Shown piece by piece: positions 1 to 33,655 of a stretch of 33,655 nucleotides of DNA; positions within the stretch are counted from its first letter, which is position 1; each line of letters starts with the position of its first letter. The notes beneath the pieces are model-generated. The model searched no databases. It saw only the letters and a list, made by a program, of their open reading frames with translations, and had not been told where the DNA came from. Source of the DNA: a virus; the IMG/VR virus record IMGVR_UViG_3300034418_007197, positions 1-33,655 of that record; one strand, given 5' to 3'. Both the position numbers and the translations under genes were made by a program.

Positions 1-396
1 TGAGAAAGCCCTTAAAAAAGGATTATCTCAAGCGCGTAAAACACTAAGAAACCAGATCAAGCGCGACCTTGACGCGGGTATACCTGCGGATAACTGGTTA
101 TTAATGAGCCGTGACGAGCTTATTAATTATATTTTAAATGGTGGTATGGGTGAAGTCGTTGACGGCTTTCTTGATACTACGAATACGGTTTATGATCTCA
201 CTCTAAAGCAATTATCTTTAGAGGGATTAGACCTTGACCCGGCGACATTAGCGCTCGATCGCGAGCGTTTAAACGCTCAACTTGTCGGCGCTGTCTTTGA
301 TGATGTTATACTGCCCGATCTTTCGCAACGTATACGCTCAACATTGACGGCGATTGATGCGGATGTCTCTATCAGTCAAACCGCTGATTTATTATT
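1..396 (+). repeat. Terminal redundancy, left copy
   Basis: These bases recur at 33260-33655 with 15 substitutions by my alignment (about 96% identity, no gaps). Fourteen are silent in the minor head protein frame; one codon changes (ACT to GCC, Thr to Ala). The neighbouring gene order is consistent with joining the ends into a circle of about 33,259 bp. Confidence 0.9.
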
Positions 397-8099: not shown

Positions 8100-9190
8100 G
8101 TAATACGTTTTCAATACCGCCGGATGTACCCAATATAAACACGCTCGTTGCAGGTCAAGAGATCGCTTCAATTACACTTCAGCGAGTGGGTAAATTATCG
8201 AATTATTCTCATGCTTACGGTGGAACCGGGAATTGTGTTTCACAATATTTCGATGATAACACATTGGCGAGCACGTCAACTACCTCAACGGTTGCTTGTC
8301 GTTGGGTTGTTCCGACTTTAAGCAGTAAACACAAAACTATGGATTTCGCCATTGATGCTTATGTAAGCGGTGGAAGTGGAACAATAACATTAGAGATCGA
8401 TGACGGTTCTACGACATCGAGCGTAAATATTACGGTTACTTCAACGAGTAGCAACTATTCAAGCGCAAGCTTGACGCATACCGGGACAACTGCAAACCCA
8501 ACTATAGAGCTTACTTTAAAAGTAACGGCGCCCGCTTCAAATGAGATAAGAATACAATCTTTTACTGCTTACTGGTTGCCGTTGGGCGCGCCATTGGCGG
8601 CGGGTATATCGACAACGGCGAGCGCTTCAAACGTCATCACTCCAATGGGAGTTAATCGGCTAGGCGCTAACAATGCTTTAAGCTCAAGAGCGGGCTTGAA
8701 TCTCAGAGAGAATATTACAACTCTAAGAAGAAGACCGCGCCCTATTTGGACTTGGTCCGGTATCTATAACGCTAGCTCATTAAGCGCAAACGCGGCACAA
8801 GGCCCGAAGGCTTTAGGCGTTGGAGATATTGCGACTTTTCACGTTGCGCCTTTGTATGTTGGAGCCGAGCGCGACAGCGTTACAAAAGAGATCAACATCG
8901 CGGCTTATGTTCAAGGTTTAACCGGGTCAGATACAATTGACGTTCAGTTTATGGGGCAAGTGATCTCGTTTAATTCAAACGGTTGGGAGTTTACAACGAT
9001 CACCGCAAACACTGACGCAATACGCGACTTAAGCGATACGGCACTACCTTATTATCGAATTGGGTTTGATGCCTCACCCACTAATCAAAGCGCGACGAAT
9101 TACGGCTTTATAAAAGCGTCCGTCGTTGCCGCAAGTGGAAGTACTCCCACGGTTCCCTATATCGCATCTTTCTCTGCGTGGTTATATTAA
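8096..9190 (+). CDS. Tail-associated protein, two beta-sandwich repeats
   Basis: 364 residues; ATGA overlap with the previous gene. Two Ser/Thr-rich beta modules of about 150 residues can be seen. They end with related strands ('FTAYWLPLG' near residue 160 and 'FSAWLY' at the C-terminus) and are joined by a basic linker ('TTLRRRPRPIW'). No catalytic motif is visible. The arrangement fits a structural or carbohydrate-binding tail-tip protein. Function unknown. Confidence 0.5.
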   Translation: MSNTFSIPPDVPNINTLVAGQEIASITLQRVGKLSNYSHAYGGTGNCVSQYFDDNTLASTSTTSTVACRWVVPTLSSKHKTMDFAIDAYVSGGSGTITLEIDDGSTTSSVNITVTSTSSNYSSASLTHTGTTANPTIELTLKVTAPASNEIRIQSFTAYWLPLGAPLAAGISTTASASNVITPMGVNRLGANNALSSRAGLNLRENITTLRRRPRPIWTWSGIYNASSLSANAAQGPKALGVGDIATFHVAPLYVGAERDSVTKEINIAAYVQGLTGSDTIDVQFMGQVISFNSNGWEFTTITANTDAIRDLSDTALPYYRIGFDASPTNQSATNYGFIKASVVAASGSTPTVPYIASFSAWLY

Positions 9191-21245: not shown

Positions 21246-21296
21246 GAATAATTTTACTTGCCAGTAAGACTTTTCTTACCTATAGTGAAGATAAGA
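21230..21296. promoter_or_regulatory. Operator cluster between divergent early promoters
   Basis: Related half-sites occur at 21230-21238 (TCTTATCTT), 21264-21269 (GTAAGA), 21274-21279 (TCTTAC) and 21288-21296 (AAGATAAGA). The first and last are perfect reverse complements, and the middle two form a perfect palindrome with a 4-base gap. They fall in the leftward spacer, the rightward spacer and the rightward start point. This is what one expects of a Cro/CI-type genetic switch. The likely ligand is HTH regulator 1, with HTH regulator 2 possible. Confidence 0.65.
21258..21286 (+). promoter_or_regulatory. Rightward early promoter
   Basis: TTGCCA (21258-21263), an exact 17-base spacer, then TATAGT (21281-21286). 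Transcription would start near 21293, leaving a leader of about 16 bases with GGAGG before the TTG start of the initiator gene. The spacer is almost filled by the palindrome GTAAGA-CTTT-TCTTAC, a clear operator position. Confidence 0.7.
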
Positions 21297-21308
21297 AAGG
21301 AGGATGAG

Positions 21309-22004
21309 TTGAAGATTCATCATTTACAAAGAGCGATAAGACGCTCGAAATTATCAATCACAGAGCGTGTTTTGCTTAGCGCCCTTGTTGATCTGGTCGA
21401 TTGGCAATCATGGCAAGGTGAAACGAAGATTAAGACGATCATGTATGAAACCGGATTAAACAAAGCGACTATTTCCAGAAAGCTCAATACCCTTGAAGAT
21501 CGAGGGTTTATAAAGCGAGTCAATCAAACCGACCACCGAGGATATAAGGAGAGCTTATACATTATAAATATAAAAGAGGTAGAAACTCAATTATCTAGCT
21601 TTTTCCCGCAGTCGCAGAATGCGACCCCCTATATGCAGAAAGAGACCCCCTCGTCGCAGGGTGCAACCGATCAGTCGCAGAGTGCGACCCCCTATATGCA
21701 GAGTGAGACCGAGCGGTTGCAGAGAGAGACCAAGCGGTCGCAGAGTGCGGATACTAATATTCTATCTTCTTCTAATTCTTCTCTACCTAATAAAAATTCT
21801 ATTTCTTTCAATAACTCAAAAGACGCGCAAGGCGCGAGCAAGGAAGTGCGGAGATACCCGAAGGGTCATTTTTGCGAGGGAGCAGTAATTGTCGATGGTG
21901 ATGATTGGGTTCCTGAGAAAAAGACAAACAATAGACAAGCATGGATTGAAGGAGGTTGGACACCTCCAACACATGAAGAGATTTTAAAGGATTATAACAA
22001 ATGA
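21309..22004 (+). CDS. Replication initiator (lambda O-like), winged helix, carries the origin
   Basis: 231 residues from TTG 21309, five bases after GGAGG 21299-21303; an ATG at 21304 is out of frame and stops at once. Residues about 1-90 form a helix-turn-helix/winged-helix domain ('ITERVLLSALVDLVDW', 'GLNKATISRKLNTLEDRGFIKR', then a 'YIINI' strand). Residues about 102-150 are seven-residue repeats alternating 'SQ.AT' and 'MQ.ET', encoded by seven DNA iterons. A Ser/Asn-rich linker and a C-terminal domain ('GGWTPPTHEEIL') follow. It overlaps a DnaC-like loader gene, so it likely binds the origin and recruits the loader. Confidence 0.75.
   Translation: MKIHHLQRAIRRSKLSITERVLLSALVDLVDWQSWQGETKIKTIMYETGLNKATISRKLNTLEDRGFIKRVNQTDHRGYKESLYIINIKEVETQLSSFFPQSQNATPYMQKETPSSQGATDQSQSATPYMQSETERLQRETKRSQSADTNILSSSNSSLPNKNSISFNNSKDAQGASKEVRRYPKGHFCEGAVIVDGDDWVPEKKTNNRQAWIEGGWTPPTHEEILKDYNK
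21612..21752 (+). repeat. Seven 21-bp iterons (putative replication origin)
   Basis: 15-bp units start at exactly 21-bp steps: 21612, 21633, 21654, 21675, 21696, 21717 and 21738. The best copies are palindromic: GTCGCAGAATGCGAC (21612) and GTCGCAGAGTGCGAC (21675), with arms GTCGCA and TGCGAC. Copies at 21633 and 21696 are degenerate and start TATGCAGA. The spacing is two helical turns, which puts all sites on one face of the DNA. They lie inside the initiator gene, as in lambda O. Confidence 0.85.
21751..21820 (+). other. AT-rich putative unwinding element beside the iterons
   Basis: By direct count 16 of these 70 bases are G or C (23%), far below the surroundings. The stretch follows the seventh iteron immediately and encodes a Ser/Asn-rich linker. 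In lambda and many plasmids an AT-rich stretch beside the iterons is where strands first open and helicase is loaded. Confidence 0.7.
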
Positions 22005-22849
22005 ACAAACTCGACTTATCCGAATTACTCGACTACTTCAGAAACTGTGAACCATCACCCGCCCCTGAGCCGTTGCCGAGCTTGGAAGGAATGACAGTTG
22101 ACGATCTCTATTCAAAGAACTTGACCGCTCATCGATGGGATGAAGAGGAATCAAGGAATGTGATCACAGTACCCAAATTTAAAAACTGTAATCGTTGCAT
22201 GGAGGGCTATGTGAATCACCCAACTCAAAACGCAATGATGACCTGCCCTCATTGCCTCGGACCTTGGCGCAAGTCAAAGCGGGTTGAACGTGCACGGCTT
22301 CCAGTTGATGCGAAGGGGAAAACCTTTTCTAATTATCAAATGGTCGGGCATTTTGGACGCATCGCGAACGCGATTAATAAATGGAGCGAGCACAGAGAGA
22401 AACAGATGGGGCCGCTTATCTATGGCCCTCCCGGCACTGGAAAAAGTCATTTTGCTTATGCTGTCGCTCATCAGCTTTTATGGAAAGATTTTAAGGTACG
22501 TTATGCGACTCATAACAGTCTACTCGATCTTGAGCGCGCTACCTGGAACGACAAGACCCGCAAGTCACCCCTTCGAACGCTTTTAAAAGATGTCGACGTC
22601 TTGATCTTGGATGAGGTAGGCGGTGTTGGTGGTGGTTATGGTCGTGTCACAGATTGGGAGAAGAAGACAACGAGCGAGATGTTAGACAACATCTACCGCA
22701 AATGGTCAGCGGGTGAGCTTTACGTTCTCTTCATCAGCAATGTTCCACTTGAGACTTTTATGAGGACATATAACCAAGCCCTTCAAAGCCGCTTACAAGA
22801 GATGATCAAGCCGGTGTTTATCAACATGACAGATAAAAGGATTAACTAA
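22001..22849 (+). CDS. DnaC/IstB-like AAA+ helicase loader
   Basis: 282 residues; ATGA overlap with the initiator. An N-terminal zinc-finger-like set (C63, C66, C82, C85) precedes the AAA+ core: Walker A 'GPPGTGKS' at 142-149, Walker B 'LILDE' at 201-205, sensor 1 'ISN' near 245-247 and an arginine in 'QSRLQE' near 264. Loaders of this type deliver the replicative helicase to single strands opened at an origin. No phage helicase is seen, so it presumably loads host DnaB. The pairing with the upstream gene mirrors lambda O and P. Confidence 0.88.
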   Translation: MNKLDLSELLDYFRNCEPSPAPEPLPSLEGMTVDDLYSKNLTAHRWDEEESRNVITVPKFKNCNRCMEGYVNHPTQNAMMTCPHCLGPWRKSKRVERARLPVDAKGKTFSNYQMVGHFGRIANAINKWSEHREKQMGPLIYGPPGTGKSHFAYAVAHQLLWKDFKVRYATHNSLLDLERATWNDKTRKSPLRTLLKDVDVLILDEVGGVGGGYGRVTDWEKKTTSEMLDNIYRKWSAGELYVLFISNVPLETFMRTYNQALQSRLQEMIKPVFINMTDKRIN

Positions 22850-33098: not shown

Positions 33099-33655
33099 AT
33101 GCTGTGCCGTAGTTGTGGACTCGTTAACCTACTCGCAGAAAAGCGAGATGCTGACGTACAAGCCATTGAAGAGCTAAGACGTCAAGCGGAGAATGAGCCG
33201 CCACTACTCGCACAGATTACACTTGCACAAGTGGAACAACTTGAAGCACAGGTAGCGGTTGAGAAAGCCCTTAAAAAAGGATTATCTCAAGCGCGTAAAA
33301 CACTAAGAAACCAGATCAAGCGCGACCTTGACGCGGGTATACCTGCGGACAACTGGTTATTAATGAGCCGCGACGAGCTTATTAATTATATTTTAAATGG
33401 TGGTATGGGAGAAGTCGTTGACGGCTTTCTTGATGCCACAAACACGGTTTACGATCTCACTCTAAAACAATTATCTTTAGAGGGATTAGATCTTGACCCG
33501 GCAACATTGGCGCTCGATCGCGAGCGTTTAAACGCTCAACTTGTCGGCGCTGTCTTTGATGATGTTATATTGCCCGATCTTTCGCAACGTATACGCTCAA
33601 CATTGACGGCGATTGATGCTGATGTATCTATCAGTCAAACCGCTGATTTATTATT
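33099..33655 (+). CDS. Minor head protein, N-terminal part (3' end outside window)
   Basis: Starts at ATG 33099, eleven bases after the capsid stop, and is still open at the window edge. The N-terminus is 'MLCRSCGLVNLLAEKR', where CRSC could bind a metal, followed by an acidic helix and then the sequence found at base 2 onwards. It supplies the missing start of the gene at 2-754. The overlap with that copy is 96% identical. Confidence 0.85.
   Translation, partial: MLCRSCGLVNLLAEKRDADVQAIEELRRQAENEPPLLAQITLAQVEQLEAQVAVEKALKKGLSQARKTLRNQIKRDLDAGIPADNWLLMSRDELINYILNGGMGEVVDGFLDATNTVYDLTLKQLSLEGLDLDPATLALDRERLNAQLVGAVFDDVILPDLSQRIRSTLTAIDADVSISQTADLL
33260..33655 (+). repeat. Terminal redundancy, right copy
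   Basis: Ungapped match to 1-396 with 15 substitutions; the first 90 bases are identical. Positions on the left copy that differ: 91, 112, 151, 176, 178, 181, 184, 193, 208, 232, 244, 250, 311, 361 and 367. Confidence 0.9.

Follow-up and report, generated by a model that had tools for sequence, protein, structure and literature searches.

Does the array of palindromic repeats lying inside a predicted initiator gene of an uncultivated phage act as its replication origin, and what governs the sequence of the repeats? The locus belongs to a viral record of 33,655 nucleotides (IMGVR_UViG_3300034418_007197), the whole of which was analysed and is called the window here. An earlier note on this DNA had read the locus as a lambda-like origin lying within the initiator gene. 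Iteron origins located within initiator genes are textbook knowledge, and, to our knowledge, few of them have been mapped outside the lambdoid phages.

The initiator gene and its genomic context

The gene harbouring the array is preceded by a Shine-Dalgarno sequence (AAGGAGG, 21297-21303, before the TTG at 21309). Its product matched a replication initiation protein family in PHROG (E=1e-12; best O-like family, E=6e-8), as well as several helix-turn-helix families in Pfam, the latter weakly and near the cut-off. The fold matches of the N-terminal winged helix (MarR-like regulators, TFE-alpha and the DnaD N-domain) were weak and generic. Beyond this domain, AlphaFold2 predicted the linker to be disordered except for one low-confidence helix, and the short C-terminal helix (residues 222-229) is a candidate contact to the loader or the helicase.

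The start of the downstream loader gene overlaps the initiator stop by 4 nt. The pairing of a winged-helix gene with a DnaC-like loader, as read in the earlier note, is borne out by the AlphaFold2 fold and by the PHROG and Pfam matches. In addition, RecT-like and SSB genes were identified nearby (Pfam, PHROG). Together with the loader and the divergent HTH_3-like gene, these genes indicate that the locus is part of a replication and recombination module. The two ends of the window (1-396 and 33260-33655) overlap directly over 396 nt with 96% identity, and open frames join across the ends with the duplicated stretch; the genome is therefore probably complete (about 33.3 kb) and circular or circularly permuted. 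The 15 differences between the ends point to a mixture of strains or to a real near-copy.

Table 1. Coordinates of the features at the initiator locus
Feature	Position	Strand	Sequence	Basis or remark
Divergent small HTH_3 repressor-like gene, 71 aa	20981..21196	-		Pfam HTH_3 E=0.0017, below curated cut-off
Promoter-like hexamers, 5' of initiator	21258..21286	+	TTGCCA-17-TATAGT	Consensus match 10/12 only
Replication initiator gene, 231 aa, TTG start	21309..22004	+		ORF, PHROG, winged-helix fold
N-terminal winged-helix DNA-binding domain, residues 1-100	21309..21608	+		AlphaFold2 pLDDT about 82-96
Recognition-helix motif NKATISR, residues 51-57	21459..21479	+		Alignment, motif vs iteron class
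Putative origin-encoded linker, about residues 101-210	21609..21938	+		pLDDT about 41-65
Putative iteron 1	21611..21625	.	GTCGCAGAATGCGAC	Perfect palindrome
Putative iteron 2	21632..21646	.	TATGCAGAAAGAGAC	Weak, 7/12 consensus positions
Putative iteron 3	21653..21667	.	GTCGCAGGGTGCAAC	11/12 consensus positions
Putative iteron 4	21674..21688	.	GTCGCAGAGTGCGAC	Perfect palindrome
Putative iteron 5	21695..21709	.	TATGCAGAGTGAGAC	Weak, 8/12 consensus positions
Putative iteron 6	21716..21730	.	GTTGCAGAGAGAGAC	Weak, 9/12 consensus positions
Putative iteron 7	21737..21751	.	GTCGCAGAGTGCGGA	10/12 consensus positions
AT-rich element, candidate DNA unwinding element	21750..21819	.		16 G/C of 70 (22.9%)
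C-terminal helix, residues 222-229	21972..21995	+		Block pLDDT 81
DnaC-like AAA+ helicase loader	22001..22849	+		PHROG E=3e-33; Pfam IstB/AAA/Bac_DnaA

Seven palindromic units and an adjoining AT-rich element

Analysis of the array (21611-21751) revealed seven units of 15 nt with the consensus GTCGCA-N3-TGCGAC, starting at 21611, 21632, 21653, 21674, 21695, 21716 and 21737. The step between them is exactly 21 nt, that is, seven codons, and all of them are read in a single frame. The number, length and spacing of the units agree with the earlier description, and so does the location of the array, except that its first base is 21611 rather than 21612 and its last base 21751. Two units are perfect palindromes and two are close to it, as had been proposed for the whole set; the remaining three (units 2, 5 and 6) are degenerate, with pairing at 1-3 of the 6 arm positions and most of the symmetry gone. 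The alternation of strong (S) and weak (W) copies suggested previously was not observed. Instead, they are ordered S W S S W W S, a pattern that results from the duplication of a three-unit block of 63 nt: the best description of the array by Tandem Repeats Finder is a 63-nt unit (score 172), and two successive 63-mers are identical at 48 of 63 positions.

The array is far beyond chance, since four sites within 2 mismatches were present in the initiator gene as compared with 0-1 in 2000 shuffles, and no other part of the window reaches its internal self-similarity (0.74 at lag 63). The search for the 15-mer elsewhere in the genome, recommended in the earlier note, yielded zero copies within 1 mismatch in the rest of the 33,655-base record and a single copy at 2 mismatches (position 9014), which corresponds to the chance expectation. 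The visible duplication of the 63-nt block raises the idea that the array is a recent tandem duplication devoid of function. This explanation is hardly credible, because the 15-mer is conserved across 13 lineages in which flanks, spacings and frames are unrelated (see below).

An AT-rich element directly follows the array, and the low G/C content ascribed to these 70 bases was confirmed. The 70-mer starting at 21751, with 15 G/C, is the second most AT-rich non-overlapping 70-mer in the record, and the minimum downstream of the array ranks among the most AT-rich of the record. On the other hand, the GC skew is positive almost throughout the record, without a switch at the array, and carries no origin information.

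Comparison with known origins located within initiator genes

In phage lambda, four inverted-repeat iterons for O dimers are located inside gene O and are adjoined by an A+T-rich tract (PMC5043065, PMC4488673, PMC7466680). The locus studied here resembles ori-lambda in its in-gene position, in its tandem inverted-repeat sites of a size suitable for an initiator, in the AT-rich tract that adjoins them, and in the helicase-loader gene directly downstream (PMC7466680, PMC5043065, PMC4488673). The two arrays differ in that the record carries seven 15-bp sites at 21 nt, as opposed to four iterons of about 19 bp in lambda; among lambdoid phages, the Stx phages have six. The Pfam Phage_rep_O family gave no match to the record's initiator at E<=0.1, and only the broader O-like families of PHROG were matched. 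The iteron sequence is unrelated to that of lambda, and the neighbouring DnaC-like AAA+ loader is unlike lambda P. Because of this loader and the lack of a Phage_rep_O match, the lambda plan claimed for the locus holds in the sense that it may work like the lambda origin, but not in the sense of a lambda O/P module.

A similar arrangement is known from the RepA_N plasmids, since in pSK41 the origin is central in the rep gene (PMC5703833). The likeness comprises an N-terminal DNA-binding domain, a central in-gene origin and an origin-encoded linker (PMC5703833), whereas pSK41 is a plasmid with a primase-recruiting initiator, and no RepA_N domain was matched by Pfam in the initiator of the record. 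With in-gene iteron origins known from lambda O and pSK41, the plan of the putative origin appears ordinary; it is the iteron that seems unusually widespread.

On the basis of this architecture (array, AT-rich tract, loader and lambda-like plan), the array is very probably the replication origin of the phage, with its units acting as iterons bound by the protein encoded in the same gene. We propose that the N-terminal winged helix would bind the GTCGCA-N3-TGCGAC palindromes as a dimer, occupying the strong copies before the weak ones. The stacked and bent complex would place strain on the neighbouring stretch of 23% GC and so melt it, whereupon the DnaC-like loader from the next gene would bring the replicative helicase onto the exposed strands. 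Each of these steps (binding, melting and helicase loading), like origin activity itself, is deduced. An origin could be accommodated at this place in the gene because the DNA of the array encodes only a flexible linker that joins the DNA-binding domain to the C-terminal tail, and initiator and origin would travel as one unit.

The palindrome identifies distant replication initiators

A direct search with the initiator as query found zero homologues in named phages or viral contigs. The search with the loader gave a single match, a 9.1-kb contig (L005) with identity over residues 103-282 (tblastn); this contig begins within the loader gene and does not cover the array. Viral contigs were also scanned for two perfect 15-mers located 6-36 nt apart, with protein information left unused. 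A total of 17 loci were retrieved, as compared with 0 loci when the palindrome was rearranged with its composition unchanged. In 15 of the 17, the sites lie within winged-helix initiator genes, after the domain (L008 and L018 could not be assigned to such a gene). Merging of near-duplicates reduced these 15 loci to 11 lineages, on contigs with 36-70% GC, and a twelfth lineage with seven sites was found in an Acidobacteriales MAG (L118), among the matches listed from the scan of bacterial genomes.

In an alignment of 12 sequences, identity to the winged helix of the record's initiator was 18-33%, with R57 and G66 as the only residues invariant in all 12. A PHROG replication-initiation family was matched by 13 of 14 aligned members. 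A DnaC-like or DnaB-like gene is located directly downstream in the record, L118 and L021, and nearby in L012. The AT-rich tract 3' of the array is clear in the record, L015, L020 and L021, moderate in L007, L012 and L013, absent in L006, and absent or weak in the remaining relatives. The sites recur in unrelated phage initiators at the same place after the winged helix, and this recurrence, along with the AT-rich flank and the loader, supports the earlier reading of the locus as a lambda-like origin in the initiator gene. Spacings in the relatives were 17, 19, 21-24, 34-36, 42-45 and 70; the helical phasing pointed out earlier thus stands for the exact 21-nt steps of the record, and strict phasing is not a rule of the class.

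The 42 sites found within 1 mismatch in the 12 other lineages are distributed over frames 0, 2 and 1 as 18, 18 and 6, respectively, so that the palindrome is translated as VAKCD, SQNAT or RKMR types, and all three frames are used inside one protein in both L020 and L118. Since the palindrome has been kept at 18-33% identity and is read in three frames, selection acts on the DNA and not on the peptide. In the record itself, where all seven copies share one frame and a step of exactly seven codons, a heptapeptide linker (QSQNATP-like) might instead be kept for the protein, by spacing domains or contacting a partner, with the DNA pattern as a by-product. Such an explanation is very improbable, as relatives read the palindrome as VAKCD, SQNAT or RKMR, often within one protein, and the region encoded by the array is predicted to be disordered. 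Moreover, the protein sequence derived from the in-gene origin of pSK41 was reported to be dispensable (PMC5703833). Peptide-level selection was consequently rejected on account of the three-frame usage in the relatives.

Binding of the initiator to the array might also serve to regulate its own gene, as an internal operator or copy-number brake, instead of marking the start of replication. Initiators often autoregulate, an internal roadblock is conceivable, and the comparative data argue for binding alone. Nevertheless, relatives carry up to eight sites, the adjoining AT-rich tract and loader are origin-like, and the promoter region lacks any site, which makes a purely regulatory role unlikely and leaves the origin as the preferred reading.

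When the scan was relaxed to the 13-mer TCGCA-N3-TGCGA, 59 loci were obtained, as compared with 4 for a second control palindrome at the same looseness. The loci added in this way were mostly TTCGCA-N3-TGCGAA pairs in promoter-like places outside winged-helix genes, which indicates that the outer G and C of the iteron matter.

A recognition-helix motif accompanies the iteron

We compared the recognition helices of the GTCGCA initiators with the differing helices of comparator initiators, taken from named phages and genomes. No perfect GTCGCA array was found in the comparator initiators, and in 24 of 30 the linker contains repeats of other sequence that exceed shuffles at p<0.05. The heptad [NHD][KR][ASV][TSN]xxR was present in 12 of 13 GTCGCA initiators and in 0 of 30 distinct comparator heptads (Fisher p about 8e-10, for a rule formed after seeing the data and sequences that are non-independent). 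L118 is the only member following the rule that came from a separate scan. The initiator of the record has at least two palindromes in its linker, and its NKATISR motif conforms to the heptad, with the rule having been derived after the fact.

Initiators with near-miss heptads, namely HRATVIE (L240), HQSTLRR (L267) and DKKTIMR (L237), carry other repeats, which fits the idea that heptad and iteron go together. In Labrenzia phage V1 (SRATLNR) the sites are degenerate, and one half-site is kept in GTAGCTGTATGCGAC, the repeat of Pseudomonas phage U7 (SRDTVIR). When two bacterial classes were searched with the winged-helix profile, the matches were MarR and IclR regulators together with initiators belonging to other classes, and no new GTCGCA initiator was among them. 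Six chromosomal MarR/IclR-like regulators fit the heptad by chance and lack the sites, and the rule is therefore limited to initiators.

The same winged helix, with a repeat-bearing linker behind it, was observed in Pam5, VSN-002, RcHotPocket, L203, L210, L218 and L238, which differ from the record in their recognition-helix residues and in their repeats. Clear in-linker repeats of their own accompany the other recognition helices of L238, L210, L203, L218 and L240, and at least two frames are apparently used by the repeats of L238.

Occurrence of the palindrome outside initiators

The palindrome is not exclusive to initiators, because most of the chromosomal pairs are carried by ORF6N genes: among the matches listed for bacterial chromosomes (L023-L141), 79 of 119 palindrome-pair loci were in genes with an ORF6N domain. 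A second, unrelated DNA-binding family may thus use the same site. We find it reasonably probable that a whole specificity class of phage initiators (on contigs of 36-70% GC, with identities down to 18%) has GTCGCA-N3-TGCGAC as its common in-gene iteron, that the class is set by the recognition-helix motif, that the iteron is frame-free, and that unrelated ORF6N genes adopted it independently.

The presence of the same pair in chromosomal ORF6N genes and in 51-nt-spaced arrays of Cohnella could also be explained if the palindrome belonged to a third party, either as a widespread palindromic element, free of stop codons, that inserts into genes, or as the site of a host protein, with initiators as mere hosts; the palindrome has indeed no fixed stop codon in any frame. 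The ORF6N occurrence slightly raises the probability of this explanation, which we still consider quite improbable, given that strict pairs in viral contigs are almost confined to initiator genes, where they follow the winged helix, and that the presence of the palindrome tracks the recognition-helix motif, as would be unexpected for a third-party element.

A search of the literature for the palindrome site found nothing relevant, and a single palindrome that distant initiators have in common, and that is linked to a recognition-helix motif, looks undescribed. If the proposed class is real, recognition helix and iteron would form a readable code with which phage origins could be located from sequence, so that the origin of an uncultivated phage becomes nameable from its sequence; the recurrence of the site, together with a few recognition-helix residues, would turn this into a testable initiator-origin code. 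One DNA site read in three frames would also provide a clean natural case of DNA-level selection within coding sequence.

Regarding the arrangement of these other occurrences, GTCGCANNNTGCGAC pairs are located directly after the domain in ORF6N genes (e.g. L031, L037, L039, L047 and L101), where they are read as RSQIAT in frame 2; at about a dozen ORF6N loci, GTCGCANNNTGCGAC is also present upstream or near the N-terminus, read as VANCD in frame 0. In Cohnella genomes (L024, L043, L056, L078, L090 and L095), palindrome arrays at 51-nt steps occur in several places per genome, apparently outside initiator and ORF6N genes. Finally, about 30 viral contigs (within L142-L184; e.g. L148, L152, L169 and L172) carry TTCGCANNNTGCGAA pairs flanking TTGACC- or TTGACG-like boxes. 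These pairs lie in promoter-like places and are probably repressor operators; it is the outer base pair that distinguishes them from the iteron.
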